DNA of 64,000 nucleotides from Lujinxingiaceae bacterium (GTDB lineage Bacteria > Myxococcota_A > Bradymonadia > Bradymonadales > Bradymonadaceae), in contig JACCWM010000122.1 of assembly GCA_013697635.1 (NCBI GenBank), forward strand, positions 1 to 64,000, read 5' to 3'. The position numbers and the translations under genes were made by a program. Below are positions 51,084-58,247 of the stretch, in pieces; positions within the stretch are counted from its first letter, which is position 1; every line of letters starts with the position of its first letter. Under the pieces are notes generated by a model. That model saw only the letters and a program-made list of their open reading frames with translations. It searched no databases and was not told where the DNA came from.

Positions 51084-51112
51084 TTGCAACAAAGCGCCGA
51101 GAGTGCTAAACA
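51084..51112 (+). promoter_or_regulatory. Promoter candidate for the MscS gene
   Basis: TTGCAA, a 17-base spacer and TAAACA. The transcript would start near 51119, after the longer open frame's ATG at 51084, which supports the ATG at 51162 as the true start. Confidence 0.5.
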
Positions 51113-51161
51113 AGCAAGCCTGCGCCAGCTTCGCCTGGCCCCCGTTTTTGCCAAGGTTTGC

Positions 51162-53492
51162 ATGAGTCGTCTTGTCGTAGTGGTCTGGTTGGCCGGGTGC
51201 CTTCTGTCCTGCCTTTTTCTGGCGTCGTGCTTGCCGTCGCCGAGCAGTTTGTTGCCCGGTATTGTCGGGCCTGCCGAAGAAGCGCCCGCAGAAGAAGCGC
51301 CCGCAGAGGCGTCGGCGGAGTCTGGTGCCGAGGCTCCCGCTGCAGAGGCGAGCGAAGGGCCACTCACGTTGCATAACACCATCGAGCCGGGGATCGAGCA
51401 GGCCGCCTTAATTCTCGAGACCCACTTCGACGCCTTTTTGCAGCGCGAGCCGCTGGGTTTTGATTGGTTTCTCTTCGAACACGTGGCAATTGACACGCTC
51501 GCTCTTGTCCATCGCCTCGACGACATGCGCCGCGAGGTCGACAGCGTGGCGCCGCTGAAGGTTGTGCAGTGGATTTTGCCACTGTTTTTGCTAGCCCTGT
51601 TGTTCGGCCTGTTCCTGGTGCTCGATCGACAGTTCGGCCGGCTCAGCCAGCGCTGGCAATCGCGCATTCACTTCGATCTCTCGCGCGTGCTGACGCGGCT
51701 GGCACGGGCCTTGGTCCTGGTGGCTGGCCGCTGCCTGCCGGCGGCCTTGCTGATCTTTCCGAGCTACTTTCCTATCCAGGCGCTCTTTGATCGCGCGCCG
51801 TGGTCGGTGCTGTTCACCGAGATGCTGTGGCTGCTGCTGGCCTATCGCGCATGCCATGGACTGATCTTGGTGGCGTTTAGCGGGCAGCTCTTGAGCATCC
51901 CCGAGGTGCACGCGCAGCGCCTGGAGCGTTTTGGGGTCTGGTTTGCGCGGGCGACGTTTGGCTTCTGGCTGGCGCTGTCGACGATCGAGGCATTTGGCTA
52001 TCGCGGCGACGTGCTGGCCGTCGTCTTGTTCGGCTTCAAGCTGGTGATGGCGACCGCGCCGGTCTATTTGTTCGTGATGCGTCGCTCGGTGCTCGCGCTG
52101 CTGCCGGCCGAGGACGGATCGCCGCTGTATCTGGCCTTTCGCCAGACGATTGAGCGCCATTACAATTGGTTTTTGGGCATCACGATCGCCCTGCTCTTTT
52201 TGAACGCCGCCGGCTTCACCCATGCCGCGAGCTTCATCTTGGTGCGCGGCTACACGATCCTCGTGCTGGTGACCGTCTCCTTTGCGATCGCGCAGCGCTT
52301 TCGTCGCTACTTGCACGAGCGCGCCGAAGACGACGACGCCGCCCTGCTCCTGGAGAGCCTCGAGCAGCTTTTGCTGCTCGCTGGTGCTGCAATCCTGGGC
52401 GTGGTCGTCTTGCGCTTGTTGGCCATTTATGACGCGCTGATCGCGATGCTCAAGATCCCCTTTCTGAGCGTCGGTAGCGTCGCGATCTCGCTGTTTCATC
52501 TGCTCAACGTGGTCGTGATTGTCACTGCGGCGGTGATCGCGACCAAGGTCTTGAAGGCCATACTCAACACCAAGATATTCCCGGCGTTCAACGTCGACAT
52601 TGGCGTTGCCTACGCCTTCAACACCCTGATCAACTACGCGCTGGTGGTGATCGCCTTCTTCATGTCGCTCTTTGCGCTGGGCGTGCACCTCTCGGCGGTG
52701 GTCGTCGTTCTGGCCAGTTTGGGCGTGGGCATCGGTTTTGGTCTGCAGACGCTGACCGAGAACCTGATCTCGGGCTTCATCATCTTGTTTGGCCGCTCGG
52801 TCAAAAAGGGCGACTTCATCACGGTCAACAGCGTCTACGGACAGGTCGAGGCCGTCGGCGCGCGCAGCGTGGTGGTTCGCACCCCGGACAACTACGACAT
52901 GCTCATCCCGAGCAAGGAGATCGTCAGCGGCCAGATCATCAACTGGACCTACCGTGACAGCGTCGTGCGCGTGCAGGTTCCCGTGGGCGTCAGCTACAAG
53001 AGCAATCCGCGCGAGGTCGAGAAGGTGTTGCTCGCGACGGCCAAGCTGCACCCCAAGATCTTGGAAGAGCCTGCCTGTGAGGTCTGGTTGACGAGCTTTG
53101 GCGACAGCGCGATCAACTTCTCGCTGCTGATCCATTTCGATTGTCGCCACATCAGCGAGCGACGGCTGCGCGGCCAGCTCAACTTTCTGATCTGGGATGC
53201 GCTCGCGGCCGCTGGCATCGAGATCCCCTTCTCTCAGCACGATCTGCACCTCAAATCAAGCGAGCTTGGGCCCGAGGGCTTGATGGCAATGAGTAAGCCC
53301 CAGGACAAGCCCGAGAAAAAGCCCGAAGACAAGCCCGAAGACAAGCCCGCAGACAAGCACGAGGAAAAGATCGAGGAAAGCCTCGACGCAGGTCTTTTAG
53401 GGCCGCAGGTGCCGGCGCAGGTCGTCGACGAAGCGGCGGATGCGCTCGGAGAGGTCGGCCCCGCGGCCCTCGATCAGCCAGACCAGCGCTGA
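51162..53492 (+). CDS. MscS-family mechanosensitive channel, long form
   Basis: 776 residues from ATG 51162. The N-terminus has a signal or lipoprotein-like start (LAGCLLSCLFLASCLPSP), then an acidic AEEAPAEEAPAE repeat and a periplasmic helical region. About eight to ten membrane helices follow. The MscS core is clear: pore helix AVVVVLASLGVGIGFGLQTL, then FGRSVKKGDFITVNSVYGQV and TPDNYDMLIPSKEIVSGQII. The C-terminal tail has a KPEDKPEDKPADK repeat. The last 32 codons overlap the convergent TrpA-like gene by 96 bases. It releases solutes on hypo-osmotic shock. Confidence 0.9.
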   Translation: MSRLVVVVWLAGCLLSCLFLASCLPSPSSLLPGIVGPAEEAPAEEAPAEASAESGAEAPAAEASEGPLTLHNTIEPGIEQAALILETHFDAFLQREPLGFDWFLFEHVAIDTLALVHRLDDMRREVDSVAPLKVVQWILPLFLLALLFGLFLVLDRQFGRLSQRWQSRIHFDLSRVLTRLARALVLVAGRCLPAALLIFPSYFPIQALFDRAPWSVLFTEMLWLLLAYRACHGLILVAFSGQLLSIPEVHAQRLERFGVWFARATFGFWLALSTIEAFGYRGDVLAVVLFGFKLVMATAPVYLFVMRRSVLALLPAEDGSPLYLAFRQTIERHYNWFLGITIALLFLNAAGFTHAASFILVRGYTILVLVTVSFAIAQRFRRYLHERAEDDDAALLLESLEQLLLLAGAAILGVVVLRLLAIYDALIAMLKIPFLSVGSVAISLFHLLNVVVIVTAAVIATKVLKAILNTKIFPAFNVDIGVAYAFNTLINYALVVIAFFMSLFALGVHLSAVVVVLASLGVGIGFGLQTLTENLISGFIILFGRSVKKGDFITVNSVYGQVEAVGARSVVVRTPDNYDMLIPSKEIVSGQIINWTYRDSVVRVQVPVGVSYKSNPREVEKVLLATAKLHPKILEEPACEVWLTSFGDSAINFSLLIHFDCRHISERRLRGQLNFLIWDALAAAGIEIPFSQHDLHLKSSELGPEGLMAMSKPQDKPEKKPEDKPEDKPADKHEEKIEESLDAGLLGPQVPAQVVDEAADALGEVGPAALDQPDQR

Positions 53493-54185
53493 GCCGACGA
53501 GCACGCCATCGGCGAACTCGCCGACCTCGGCGGCCTCCTCGCCGGTTGAGACCTTCATCGAGGCGATGATCGGCAGCTGCGTGTGCTGGTGAAAGCCGGC
53601 CATGGCGGCCTTGAAGCTCTCGGTTGAGATGGTCACCTCACCGCCGGAGTGGCCCGTCCAGACGATGAAGCCGCGCGCGCCCTCGGCCATGCTCTGAAAG
53701 CGCTCGGTGGACGTGGTGGGCGCCACGCTGCGAATGATGGCGATGCCGTGAGCGGCAAAGCTCTGCTCGACGCCCTGGGATTCGTCCCAGGGCAGGTCGG
53801 CGATCATGACGGCGTCGACACCGGCCGCGGACATCTGGCGCGCGCAGTTTTCCAGGCCCATGGCCAAGAATCGGTTGAAGTAGCTCGAAGCGACGATCGG
53901 CGTCTCGAAGCGCTCGCGAAAACGCGCGGCCAGCTCGCAGATGTCTGACCAGCCGACGTCCTCGTGGATGGCGCGCGCGCAGGCGCGCTGAATCACCGGG
54001 CCGTGGTAGGTCGGATCGGAGAAAGGCACGATGAGCTCGATGATGTCGACGCCCTGCTCGGCCAGAATGCTCATGTACTTCAAGGTCGCTTCGACGTGGG
54101 GATCGCCCGCAACCAGGGCGCCCATGAGCAGGGGCCGGCCGTCTGCGGCGAAGTCCGACTCGAGTTTTTCCAGCCGCTGGCTCAT
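53397..54185 (-). CDS. TrpA-like protein lacking catalytic residues
   Basis: 262 residues, the normal length for tryptophan synthase alpha. Homology is clear (MGALVAGDP, VPFSDPTYHGPVIQ, AGVDAVMIADLPWDES, VAPTTSTERF, LVGSALVWLIE). Glu50 matches catalytic Glu49. The catalytic Asp60 position is His61 (DPLADGP becomes DPTYHGP). In loop 6 the conserved R179, T183 and G184 positions hold His, Glu and Val (WTGHSGGEV). The phosphate-loop GFG is replaced by MKV/KVS. The normal alpha reaction is therefore unlikely. The start overlaps the TrpB-like stop by ATGA. No other trp genes are nearby. Confidence 0.85.
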   Translation of the reverse strand: MSQRLEKLESDFAADGRPLLMGALVAGDPHVEATLKYMSILAEQGVDIIELIVPFSDPTYHGPVIQRACARAIHEDVGWSDICELAARFRERFETPIVASSYFNRFLAMGLENCARQMSAAGVDAVMIADLPWDESQGVEQSFAAHGIAIIRSVAPTTSTERFQSMAEGARGFIVWTGHSGGEVTISTESFKAAMAGFHQHTQLPIIASMKVSTGEEAAEVGEFADGVLVGSALVWLIEGRGADLSERIRRFVDDLRRHLRP

Positions 54186-55381
54186 GGTGTCTGCCGGCTG
54201 TGGGCGAATTGGTCGAGGCGCTCGAGATCGCGCAGTCCGCTGCCGGTGATGCCCACGACGACGTGCTGTTCGCTGCCCAGGGTCGCCGCGATCTTGATCG
54301 CGTAGGAGAGGGCGTGGCCGGACTCCAGGCAGACGAGAAGACCCTCGGTGCGGGCCAGGGTGCGCACGGCCAGGCAGGCATCGTCGTCGCTCACGGCGAC
54401 ATAGTGCACGCGACCCTCGGCAGCCCAGCGCGCATGCTGGGGGCCGACGTTGGGCACGCACAGGCCGCCGGCTATCGAGTGTGGAACGAGCACCTGTCCG
54501 TTGTCGTCTTGGAGCAGATAGGAGTGGGTGCCCATAAAGACGCCGGGGCTTCCGACGACGAGGCTTGCCGAGGTGCGCGCGCCGTGGCCGTCGCCACCGC
54601 CTTGCACGCCCACCAATTGGATGTCGGTGTGCTTGGCGAACTCGGAGAAGAGGCCGACACCAAAAGCACCGCTGCCGATCGGGGCGATGATGTATTCCGG
54701 GTCACAGCCGCGGCGCTTGAGCTGCACGCGGGTCTCGGCGCCGATGACGCCCAGCGCGTAGGCCAAGATGCGCGGGAAGGGATCGGGCATGGCAAGCGAG
54801 CTGGCGCAGTAGTGGGCCTGGTTGGAGTGGGTGGCCCAAAAGCGCAGCGCCTCGGAGCAGGCGCGCTTTCGCCCGCGCGTGCCGGTGTCGACGGTCTCGA
54901 TGACCACACCGAGCTCGAGCATGCGCTGGACGTTGAGTGTCTCGTTTTCGAGGTCTTCGCGGCCCATGAAGATGCGCGCCTCGAGCCCCATGGCTGCTGC
55001 GATCGAGCCCAGCGCCACGCCAAAATCCCCGGTGCCCGTCTCGCCGATCACCGAGCGGCGTCCAAGGCGGCGCGCGAGCAAGACCTGCAAGACGGCCGTG
55101 TTGATGCTAAAGGAGCCGCCCTGGCAGAGGTCTTCACGCTTGACCCAGATCTGGGCACCGCCGACGCGCTCGGAGAGCGCGCCCAGGTGGCTGACGGGCG
55201 TGGGCCGGCCGATGCGATGATCGAGCCAGCGCTCCATGGTAGTGACGAACTTGGGGTCATCGACGGCCTCGTCGAAGGCATCGGCGATCTCCTGGAGCGG
55301 CGTCCAGAGGGACTCGGCGACGTAGCGCCCGCCAAAGCGTCCGAATCGGCCCGGCAAAAGCCGCTCGTTTGTGGTCGACAT
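54182..55381 (-). CDS. TrpB-like protein lacking the PLP-binding lysine
   Basis: 399 residues, TrpB length. Family blocks: FGRFGGRYVAESLWTPLQEI, GRPTPVSHL, WVKREDLCQGG, ETGTGDFGVALGS, SVGPQHA-like NVGPQHARW and LESGHALSYAIK. The PLP motif GGAHKTN reads GGSFSIN, so His86-Lys87 are Phe91-Ser92; Lys87 normally forms the Schiff base. The phosphate loop GGGSN is GSGAF (236-240), Gln114-His115 are Asp-Phe, and Ser377 is Thr. The Glu109 equivalent (Glu114) is kept. PLP chemistry is very unlikely. The start shares a base with the SRPBCC stop (TGATG). Confidence 0.88.
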   Translation of the reverse strand: MSTTNERLLPGRFGRFGGRYVAESLWTPLQEIADAFDEAVDDPKFVTTMERWLDHRIGRPTPVSHLGALSERVGGAQIWVKREDLCQGGSFSINTAVLQVLLARRLGRRSVIGETGTGDFGVALGSIAAAMGLEARIFMGREDLENETLNVQRMLELGVVIETVDTGTRGRKRACSEALRFWATHSNQAHYCASSLAMPDPFPRILAYALGVIGAETRVQLKRRGCDPEYIIAPIGSGAFGVGLFSEFAKHTDIQLVGVQGGGDGHGARTSASLVVGSPGVFMGTHSYLLQDDNGQVLVPHSIAGGLCVPNVGPQHARWAAEGRVHYVAVSDDDACLAVRTLARTEGLLVCLESGHALSYAIKIAATLGSEQHVVVGITGSGLRDLERLDQFAHSRQTP

Positions 55382-55857
55382 CAGCGCGAGGCACCGGCGT
55401 GGGCTTTCTCGAGGTGGCTCTTGACCAGCTCGAGATAGCCGCCAACGCCCTTGCGAATCTCGCGCGCGACGATGCCGTTGAACACCTTGGCGGCAAGCTT
55501 TGGGATGGGAAGGTCGGTGGCGATCGTCTCCTCGTAGTCGACCTCGGTCTTTTGGCCGAGCTTGCGACAGCGCACGGTGCCCTTGGAGCGCATGTTGCCC
55601 TCACCGACGGTATTCCAGACCACGCGATCGTCGCCTTCGCGCTCGTAGCGCACGCTGTAGGTGCCCTGGAACTTGACGCCCTTCTCGTTTTTCTCGCGCA
55701 GCACCCACTTCCACAGGCCAGGCTCGATCTCCTCGGCGCGCTCGAGCTGGGTAAAACACACCTGCAGCTTTTTAGGATCACCAAAGAAGTCAACGACCTG
55801 CTCGAGCGGGGCGTTGATCACCAGTGACTGTTTTTCGGTACCCTCGATCCAGGCCAT
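55381..55857 (-). CDS. SRPBCC (START/Bet v1-like) ligand-binding protein
   Basis: 158 residues from ATG 55857; the longer frame would overlap mepA. The protein reads as a helix-grip SRPBCC domain: SLVINAPLEQVVDFFGDPKK, then a beta sheet (GTYSVRYEREGDDRVVWNTV, TVRCRKLGQKTEVDYEETIA) and a long C-terminal helix (IRKGVGGYLELVKSHLEKAH). Such domains bind lipids, polyketides or other hydrophobic ligands. Its stop codon overlaps the TrpB-like start, so the three genes are translationally coupled. The ligand is unknown. Confidence 0.82.
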   Translation of the reverse strand: MAWIEGTEKQSLVINAPLEQVVDFFGDPKKLQVCFTQLERAEEIEPGLWKWVLREKNEKGVKFQGTYSVRYEREGDDRVVWNTVGEGNMRSKGTVRCRKLGQKTEVDYEETIATDLPIPKLAAKVFNGIVAREIRKGVGGYLELVKSHLEKAHAGASR

Positions 55858-55894: not shown

Positions 55895-56935
55895 TTATCG
55901 GCAGTTGCTGTCTTCAGGCCCACAGCGAAAGCGGATATGGGCATGGTTGAGATGCCCACGTGCGTGGCGGATGAGGCCGTTGCTGGCGTTTTGGCCGTGG
56001 GGGTACTGGATCAACGGCTCGAGCTCCTCGGCGCTGTAGCCGATCGAGAGGCCGTACTCGTGGAGCACCTTTTGCAAACGGTAGTCGATGAAGACGTACT
56101 CCACCTCGCTGGTGTCGATCAAGATCTTGAGCAAATGCCAATTCTTGACCGCGTCGAAGGTCTCTGGCGTCATGTTTCGAAAGTCGGGCAACTCGATGTT
56201 GCCGCGGTGATAGAAGGCCAGATCGACGTCGCGCCCGGATTGATGGCTCTTGTGGGGGCGCATGCGACCGCCGTTTTGCTGGCTCAAGCTGCCCACGACC
56301 ATGTCCGGTGCGTCAGGCCAGCGCGCCTTGATGTCGGCGCCGGCACCCTCGAGCAGGTTGATCGTGCGCTTGGTGCCAAAGGCGCGCGCCTGGTTGCGAA
56401 CACGCAGCCCCGGGCTGTCCTGCAGGGCGACGCCATTGTAGAGGCGGCCGCCGTTGGCCGCGCCCCACGAGGTGCTCCTGCCGTCGGTGGTGGTCACGTT
56501 GGGAACTTGCAGGCGCACTTGCTGGCCAATCTGTAAGCGTCGCGGGTTGACCCGGCGGTTCCACTGCTGAATCTGCTGCACGCTGACGCGGTGGCGTTTG
56601 GCGATCGCCTCGAAGGTGTCACCGGCGCGCACGGTGTGCACCACGGCCATGGTCTTGCTCACCGGCGCGGGGGGCTTGATCACCTCGGCCGAGCGAACGA
56701 TCAGCGTTGTGTCCGCTACGATCGCGATCGAATCGAGCTTGTTCCAGCCCAAGAGGTCGTTGATGCCTACTTTGAAGCGCAAGGCTATGGCCCCCAGAGT
56801 GTCCTCCGGGCTGACCGTGTAATACAAAAGATCGTCTTGGGGTTTGTTCTCGCTGCTGGCCGGCGTGCTCACCACCATTCCAGCCAACATCAAACTTGCA
56901 GCCATCATCAGTTTCGATCGTTGCCATTTTGCCAC
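55895..56935 (-). CDS. mepA: MepA-type murein endopeptidase with two LysM domains
   Basis: 346 residues from GTG 56935, chosen because GGAGG lies 5 bases upstream and a signal peptide follows (LMMAASLMLAGMVVSTPASS). Two LysM domains bind peptidoglycan: YTVSPEDTLGAIALRFKVGI and HTVRAGDTFEAIAKRHRVSV. The C-terminal 190 residues are a penicillin-insensitive (family M74) endopeptidase, with the zinc motifs HKSHQSGRDVDLAFY and RGHLNHAHIRFRCG. It cleaves D-Ala-mDAP cross-links. E. coli MepA has no LysM domains, so this is a longer form. SRPBCC follows after 37 bases. Confidence 0.9.
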   Translation of the reverse strand: MAKWQRSKLMMAASLMLAGMVVSTPASSENKPQDDLLYYTVSPEDTLGAIALRFKVGINDLLGWNKLDSIAIVADTTLIVRSAEVIKPPAPVSKTMAVVHTVRAGDTFEAIAKRHRVSVQQIQQWNRRVNPRRLQIGQQVRLQVPNVTTTDGRSTSWGAANGGRLYNGVALQDSPGLRVRNQARAFGTKRTINLLEGAGADIKARWPDAPDMVVGSLSQQNGGRMRPHKSHQSGRDVDLAFYHRGNIELPDFRNMTPETFDAVKNWHLLKILIDTSEVEYVFIDYRLQKVLHEYGLSIGYSAEELEPLIQYPHGQNASNGLIRHARGHLNHAHIRFRCGPEDSNCR

Positions 56936-57137
56936 GCATACCTCCACTTCACCCATTGGCTTTGACGCCCTCACTTTCAACGCGTCAATTGATGGGTACG
57001 GTCTGTTAATGCCACGTCCAAAGGCCGAACTGGTCGTATTGTGGTTAACCAAGGCCCGGACGAAAGTCAAGCAGCGACCCTGCCACACAAACCTACACGA
57101 CGGCGCTGGTGCGCCTGTGTCGTGTGCACCTGAAGGG

Positions 57138-58247
57138 TCAACTCGAGGCATCGGCAGGCTCCTGGTCACCTTGGCCATCTGGCTCCATTGCTCGCTCACC
57201 AAGCACGTCTTCGATGTAGACGTGCTTGATCACGACCACGATCACCACCAGCAAGGGCGTGGCCAGGATCAGTCCGATGAAGCCCAAGACCACGGCCATG
57301 ACGAGCTCCGCAATGATCACCAGCGCAGGGGGTAGATGCACGATTCGGTGCTGCAGGATTGGGGTGAGCAGGTAGCTTTCGACGCTTTGAACCAGCCAGT
57401 AGAACAGCGCCGTATAGATCGCCAGGCGCGGCGAGATCAGCACGGCCAGCAAAATCGCCGGGATGCTCGCCAGCACGGGGCCGACCACGGGCACAAATTC
57501 GAGAAAGGTGATCAGCAGCGCCAGAGTGAGCACCATCGGCACACCGAGCAGCCACAGGCCGATGCCCGTCATGATGCCGACGAGGATCATCGTCACAAAG
57601 CGGGCCACGAGCCACCACTGCAGCTGCTTGCCCACGGCGTGAATCACCTCCTCGGCGCGCGCGCGCTTGTCGAGCGGCATCAGGCGCACCGCGCCCCCGA
57701 TGTAGAGGCCCGGGTTGATCGCCAGGTAGATGCCCACAAAGACCACAAAGAGCACGTCGACTAGCCCGCCCACCGTCGTCGAGATGATGCCGCCCACACG
57801 CCCGAGCAGCTCGAGCTCGTCGGTCCGCGCGTCGCCCGGGGTATCGGGTAGCTGTGCCAGCAAGAACTCACCCCAGGCATACGAGGCGATCGACTCACGA
57901 AGCCGCTCGATCGCCACCGGGATGTCCGCCGAGAGCTCGCCCACCTGTGCGCTGACCTGGGGCGCGAGCAGCCAGATCATGGCGGTGAAGGCGGCCAACA
58001 GGACAAGCGTCACGAGCAGCAGCGACCAACCCGGCTTGAGCTTGCTGCGATCGCTGAGCTGGTTGGCAAGCCCACGCAAAAAAACGGCGATCAACACCGA
58101 GGCAAAGGTCAGCATCAAGATGTGGAAGATGCGCCAGGTAAAGAGCAGCAGCCCGACGATCACCACGGTCGTAAAGACCACGACCAGCACGCGCCAGACA
58201 AAAGTGCCCCGCGACGCGTCCATGCCGCCGTGCTTGATCGCCGGCAT
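57138..58247 (-). CDS. AI-2E family (PerM/YdiK-like) permease
   Basis: 369 residues from ATG 58247 (AGAGG upstream); an ATG at 58292 is a longer alternative. About eight membrane helices, with a large soluble loop near residues 95-145. Family signatures: GWSLLLVTLVLLAAFTAMIW, IYLAINPGLYI, then LEFVPVVGPVLASIPAI and LTPILQHRIVHLPPALVII. The AI-2E family covers PerM-type permeases and some Na+(Li+)/H+ antiporters. Autoinducer export is established for few members, so the substrate is open. Confidence 0.87.
   Translation of the reverse strand: MPAIKHGGMDASRGTFVWRVLVVVFTTVVIVGLLLFTWRIFHILMLTFASVLIAVFLRGLANQLSDRSKLKPGWSLLLVTLVLLAAFTAMIWLLAPQVSAQVGELSADIPVAIERLRESIASYAWGEFLLAQLPDTPGDARTDELELLGRVGGIISTTVGGLVDVLFVVFVGIYLAINPGLYIGGAVRLMPLDKRARAEEVIHAVGKQLQWWLVARFVTMILVGIMTGIGLWLLGVPMVLTLALLITFLEFVPVVGPVLASIPAILLAVLISPRLAIYTALFYWLVQSVESYLLTPILQHRIVHLPPALVIIAELVMAVVLGFIGLILATPLLVVIVVVIKHVYIEDVLGERAMEPDGQGDQEPADASS

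Follow-up and report, generated by a model that had tools for sequence, protein, structure and literature searches.

The 64,000-nucleotide stretch of DNA analysed here (the window; positions 1 to 64,000 of contig JACCWM010000122.1 from a Lujinxingiaceae bacterium, order Bradymonadales) carries an operon in which a gene of the SRPBCC (START/Bet v 1-like) superfamily is followed by homologues of the beta and alpha subunits of tryptophan synthase, which we call TrpB* and TrpA* (together TrpB*A*). It is well supported that this pair is a conserved, remodelled descendant of tryptophan synthase and very probably lacks pyridoxal phosphate (PLP). With moderate confidence, we further propose that a former tryptophan synthase was kept after its bearers became auxotrophic and was remodelled into a PLP-less complex of the pseudoenzyme type, in which TrpA* would be the working site and the SRPBCC protein a partner. 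The central features are as follows.

55381..55857, reverse strand: SRPBCC (START/Bet v 1-like) gene, 158 aa, second in the operon (PF10604 match, AlphaFold model, Foldseek)
54182..55381, reverse strand: TrpB*, tryptophan synthase beta homologue lacking the PLP lysine, 399 aa (TIGR00263 match, residue alignment, tree)
55106..55108, reverse strand: TrpB* codon 92, AGC (Ser), aligned with the PLP Schiff-base lysine (comparison with E. coli TrpB)
53397..54185, reverse strand: TrpA*, 262 aa, a remodelled homologue of the tryptophan synthase alpha subunit (TIGR00262 match, model, residue alignment)
54003..54005, reverse strand: TrpA* codon 61, CAC (His), aligned with catalytic Asp60

The beta homologue

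TrpB* aligns with TrpB proteins of solved structure almost from one end to the other, and its match to TIGR00263 spans nearly the whole length, scoring 369.6 bits, under the curated cut-off of 392.45. Residues were compared between 15 TrpB* and 36 canonical sequences plus E. coli TrpB; an 82-aa TrpB* fragment from genome G006 (L061) was excluded from the counts and the tree. The lysine of the GAHK motif, Lys87 in E. coli numbering, is replaced by Ser92 in the window copy, and the position holds S, T, C or A in 15/15 TrpB*, so that a preliminary description of this DNA had rightly called the protein a Lys-less TrpB. Lysine occupies the position in E. coli and in all 36 canonical sequences that the alignment covers. 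A replacement lysine was sought in TrpB*, and none was found: the sole lysine common to all of them, K76, is also present in all canonical rows.

The changes extend well beyond this residue. The window copy carries K87S, H86F, N236F, H115F, Q114D and D305C, and across the family H86 is F or Y, N236 is F or Y and H115 is F in every one of the 15 proteins. The D305 position holds C, S, R, M, A or V (14/14), its partner R141 is lost in 14/15, and E109 is kept in 13/15. Among 109 columns that are at least 95% conserved in canonical TrpB, TrpB* keeps 51, relaxes 43 and switches 15 to another fixed residue, including H86F, H115F, Q114D, G233S and N236F. We take PLP to be held by H86, K87 and residues 232–236 in the Salmonella structures; since the H86 and N236 positions are now aromatic, two aromatic side chains would stand at the phosphate-holding place. 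With the PLP lysine and two PLP-anchoring contacts lost, TrpB* is predicted neither to bind PLP nor to catalyse beta-replacement. On these residues, TrpB* is very probably a PLP-less descendant of the tryptophan synthase beta subunit.

The alpha homologue and the subunit interface

TrpA* scored 165 bits against TIGR00262, above the cut-off, and also exceeded the cut-off of Trp_syntA (Pfam). Its AlphaFold model is a TrpA barrel (mean predicted local confidence, pLDDT, 89.6; template modelling score, TM, 0.91 to TrpA 5k9x), poorly defined at residues 180–184. Although it passed TIGR00262, TrpA* does not hold the full catalytic pair of Glu49 and Asp60: Glu49 is kept in 15/15, and Asp60 is His in 15/15, a position that is D or E in 22/22 canonical sequences. 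Further replacements are F22 to A/G, L100 to S/T/A and Y175 to V/I/L (each 15/15) and F212 to M (14/15); we take these four to be residues of the TrpA indole pocket. Loop 6 is shorter by two residues.

At the same time, W176, G178, H179 and S209 (query numbering) have become invariant, and Tyr102, Asp130 (query numbering) and Ser235 are kept. The catalytic face has gained invariant His61, Trp176, His179 and Ser209, and it holds 16 of the 32 invariant residues in 55 of 262 positions (Fisher p = 9e-5). With Glu49 retained and new invariant residues lining its catalytic face, TrpA* cannot be regarded simply as inactive. The term "inactive tryptophan synthase scaffold" used in the preliminary description therefore does not do justice to TrpA*, which is probably the working site of the complex.

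Such a complex may still form. The alpha positions P57 (14/15), N104 (15/15) and P132 (15/15) are kept in TrpA* and the beta positions R175 (14/15) and G292 (15/15) in TrpB*; we assume these to be interface positions of the Salmonella enzyme. This pattern suggests that assembly of TrpA* with TrpB* has been retained.

The SRPBCC protein

The SRPBCC protein gave a weak match to Pfam PF10604 (29.2 bits, cut-off 27.4), and a profile search returned no NCBIfam family for it. Its AlphaFold model (pLDDT 91.7) and Foldseek show the helix-grip fold with a long C-terminal helix typical of the superfamily, the best Foldseek match being 3p9v (Maqu_3174; TM 0.86).

Gene order, distribution and selection

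The SRPBCC stop and the TrpB* start have one base in common (TGATG) and the TrpB* stop and TrpA* start have four (ATGA), confirming the stop/start overlaps reported earlier. TrpB* and TrpA* overlap by 1–8 nt in all 15 family loci with both genes. SRPBCC and TrpB* overlap in 10 of 13 family loci; in the remaining three the two genes are 25, 71 and 87 nt apart, with start codons chosen by script.

Both TrpA* (9 of 13 genera) and TrpB* are found in 16 of 21 family genomes, one TrpB* being the G006 fragment at a contig end. The gene order recurs in relatives: SRPBCC lies directly before TrpB* in 13 of the 16 TrpB* carriers. One true absence was seen in G003, where TrpB* is preceded at 10 nt by the endopeptidase gene and the search for SRPBCC gave no hit; in G020 SRPBCC and TrpB* lie at two contig ends, and in G006 the break falls inside TrpB*. 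TrpB* stands at contig ends in G002, G006, G011 and G020, in which the full trio is not visible in one piece, and no TrpA match was found within locus L063. Across the 21 genomes, 14 have SRPBCC and TrpA*, four SRPBCC only, two TrpA* without an SRPBCC hit and one neither. Presence and absence therefore give no association between SRPBCC and TrpA*, and the evidence that links them is adjacency.

In a 377-genome sample of the phylum, the 15 longer TrpB* scored 446–676 bits and no genome outside the family reached that band, the next best being a canonical TrpB at 421 bits. A separate contig scan, which did not return the family, gave 11 loci, consisting of four lysine-bearing TrpB of other groups (L003–L006) and seven short partial matches.

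The trio shows no decay and is maintained by purifying selection. Pairwise Nei-Gojobori dN/dS (omega) was 0.03–0.18 for TrpB*, 0.09–0.30 for TrpA* and 0.06–0.32 for SRPBCC, far below 1 in 19/19 comparisons; among the three closest relatives TrpB* was the most constrained of the trio (0.034–0.045). All copies not cut by contig ends have open frames, and the new residues are fixed across nine genera, at 49–62% identity of TrpB* to the window copy. The preliminary description had named loss of the trio in relatives or decay of the genes as grounds against its proposal; we found neither.

Loss of the pathway and origin of the trio

The genome of the window (contig C178, 6,213,341 bases) is 99.45% complete. 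It contains no canonical TrpB, TIGR00263 returning TrpB* under the cut-off and three weak matches of 20–28 bits; for indole-glycerol phosphate synthase (IGPS, TrpC) there was one sub-threshold match, for phosphoribosylanthranilate isomerase (PRAI, TrpF) none, and for TrpD none over the cut-off. The earlier remark that no other trp genes lie nearby can thus be extended to the whole genome for TrpC, TrpD, TrpF and canonical TrpB, trpE and trpR not having been searched. The view that the operon does not serve tryptophan synthesis is supported. According to PMC7460792, members of the group are predators with auxotrophies for many amino acids, tryptophan among them.

Within the family, IGPS exceeded the cut-off in 1 of 21 genomes (G010). 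In this genome TrpB*A* coexists with a canonical trp operon, so that the two functions are separate. Loci L062 and L176 of G010 hold this operon and a second TrpC-TrpF locus. Another genome, G007, has a lone canonical TrpB (L063:9035-10237) and no TrpC, perhaps for indole salvage.

In the TrpB tree, TrpB* forms one clade (15 rows, support 100/100), which joins the TrpB of G021, a genome of the sister family, at 95/89; the canonical TrpB of G010 groups elsewhere. G021 has the order trpD(part)-trpC-trpF-SRPBCC-trpB-trpA-kinase. The active-site residues encoded there are normal, and its SRPBCC is 45% identical to that of the window. The simplest history is vertical descent from a G021-like trp operon, with loss of the other trp genes and subsequent remodelling. 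Since SRPBCC already sits in a normal trp operon in the sister family, it did not join an already dead scaffold.

A related arrangement was found in genus g23 of family f4. In G030, G041 and G036 a degenerate IGPS-like gene is followed at a distance of 3 nt by an SRPBCC homologue; in G039 the two genes are neighbours. By alignment, the two lysines that we take to be catalytic are missing from the IGPS-like gene, and the one pair compared indicates purifying selection on it (omega 0.075). None of the four genomes gave a TrpB match at E 0.001. The four loci are as follows.

L113:7037-8359, L114:3962-5257, L116:179-1501 and L115:3223-4527: SRPBCC homologue and degenerate TrpC-like gene, one locus in each of the four g23 genomes

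In G023 (L108:1452-2640), an SRPBCC homologue follows a lone glutamine amidotransferase (TrpG-like) gene and has a kinase gene downstream; a LysM-like gene diverges from it, and the contig also has a second, weak PRAI match. A Ser/Thr kinase gene after SRPBCC, or after SRPBCC-trpB-trpA, was seen in four relatives outside the family (L105, L108, L109 and L112).

Neighbouring genes

The trio was correctly delimited in the preliminary description, but the operon has a fourth member that it missed, a murein endopeptidase gene ahead of SRPBCC.

55895..57202, reverse strand: LysM + Peptidase_M74 (MepA-type murein endopeptidase), first gene of the operon, start codon uncertain (Pfam PF01476 + PF03411)
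51084..53492, forward strand: MscS-type mechanosensitive channel, convergent, flanking the operon (Pfam PF00924)

The endopeptidase gene ends 37 nt ahead of SRPBCC in the window and precedes SRPBCC in 12/12 loci with enough sequence, with gaps of 15–85 nt; the domain assignment comes from Pfam matches of the window copy. The MscS gene overlaps TrpA* tail to tail at its 3' end by 96 bp (53397-53492), and a convergent MscS-type homologue lies downstream of the operon in 13 loci. The channel gene is probably a neighbour and not part of the operon. A promoter scan found none, and terminator matches were uninformative.

Proposed function and alternatives

We envisage that an ancestral trp operon carried an SRPBCC gene between trpF and trpB, and that the predatory family would have lost tryptophan synthesis and retained SRPBCC-trpB-trpA, the TrpB*/TrpA* pair being remodelled after the pathway was gone. 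TrpA* and TrpB* may still assemble like tryptophan synthase, with TrpA* as the working site that would bind or convert a new small molecule and TrpB* as its cofactor-free structural and allosteric partner. The SRPBCC protein, made from the same message, could bind a related apolar ligand and hand it to the complex or take it from there. The earlier interpretation is partly supported, in that the trio is conserved and does not serve tryptophan synthesis; the new binding, sensing or carrier system that it suggested is a putative role.

Several observations count against this proposal. Beta K167, presumably the partner of alpha D56, is K or R in 10 of 15 TrpB* and S in five. SRPBCC and TrpB*A* are separable, as the pair occurs without SRPBCC in G003 and SRPBCC without the pair in G004, G005 and G012. 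In the TrpA tree, TrpA* is monophyletic and the sister relation to G021 is not recovered, and the clustering of invariant residues on the catalytic face would also fit the history of any barrel enzyme.

The missing pathway and the four genomes with SRPBCC but no TrpA* could also mark a leftover tryptophan synthase in an auxotroph, heading to pseudogenes. Intact frames, an omega of 0.03–0.30 for TrpB*/TrpA* and residues newly fixed across the nine genera argue otherwise; a decaying relic is highly improbable, and the intact copies, kept by purifying selection in the different genera, largely refute it. An indole-releasing complex, in which a dead beta subunit activates alpha and free indole is made, has a precedent in the plant tryptophan synthase beta (TSB)-like protein (PMC12727527). 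TrpA*, however, has neither Asp60 nor the indole pocket, no TrpC over the cut-off would supply indole-glycerol phosphate in 20 of 21 family genomes, and Glu109, lost in TSB-like, is kept in 13/15 TrpB*, which leaves this explanation with very little probability.

A stronger competitor, if still an unlikely one, is a purely structural or regulatory pseudoenzyme, an alpha-beta scaffold or protein-protein regulator having no small-molecule ligand. The rebuilt PLP site would fit such a role, and TrpB* is, among the three closest relatives, the most constrained of the trio (omega 0.034–0.045), as could be the case for a protein-protein hub; on the other hand, conservation in TrpA* is concentrated on the former active-site face, with Glu49 and Ser235 kept. 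We also consider it rather unlikely that the functional pair is the LysM/M74 endopeptidase with SRPBCC, acting on the cell wall, and that TrpB*A* is a separate function sharing the transcript. A LysM gene does lie directly before SRPBCC in G004, G005 and the class-level relative G031, where no TrpB*A* follows, but the translational overlap joins SRPBCC to TrpB* and not the peptidase to SRPBCC, and SRPBCC occurs inside the G021 trp operon and, in four genomes of a further family, adjoins a degenerate TrpC.

Returning to a remodelled complex with a working alpha site, we tentatively extend it, at less than even confidence, to the broader idea that Bradymonadia predators use a cofactor-free tryptophan synthase descendant together with SRPBCC as a new receptor for small molecules or an enzyme independent of PLP, and that keeping disused trp enzymes for partners is habitual in the SRPBCC family, with TrpB*A* as the case in this family and the degenerate TrpC* as that of a second family of the class. 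Tryptophan synthase is a textbook example of a channelling enzyme. A natural lineage whose two subunits have retained its fold and much of the presumed interface, and have lost the residues needed for the chemistry, would reveal what uses the scaffold has in the absence of PLP. The locus would also be a clear example of biosynthetic enzymes put to new use once a predator had lost the pathway, an old enzyme seemingly given a new job in bacteria that prey on bacteria.

Comparison with known systems

In the open-licence literature, we found no work combining "tryptophan synthase", "pseudoenzyme" and "catalytic lysine", none linking "SRPBCC" with "tryptophan synthase" and none linking "Bradymonadales" with "tryptophan synthase". 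The SRPBCC protein has the fold of the SRPBCC/START/Bet v 1-like superfamily (PF10604, CoxG, aromatase-cyclases), from which it differs in being encoded with trp-derived genes and in belonging to no NCBIfam family. TrpB*A* and the tryptophan synthase alpha-beta complex (PF00290/PF00291, TIGR00262/TIGR00263) have in common their ancestry, overlapping B-A gene order, fold and most of the presumed interface residues, whereas the PLP lysine, the PLP-anchoring residues, D305, alpha D60 and the indole pocket are replaced in TrpB*A*. Unlike a tryptophan synthase operon, the locus stands in an organism without the pathway and includes SRPBCC and murein endopeptidase genes.

The closest known case is the plant TSB-like pseudoenzyme, likewise a catalytically dead beta subunit derived from TrpB; as described in PMC12727527, it is altered at E109 and D305 and activates an alpha subunit that is functional. 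The plant-type features of a replaced E109, D305E and an active partner alpha do not seem to apply to TrpB*A* from its residues. In TrpB*A* it is instead the PLP lysine that is gone, E109 is mostly kept, the alpha subunit is rebuilt, and the genome has no TrpC.

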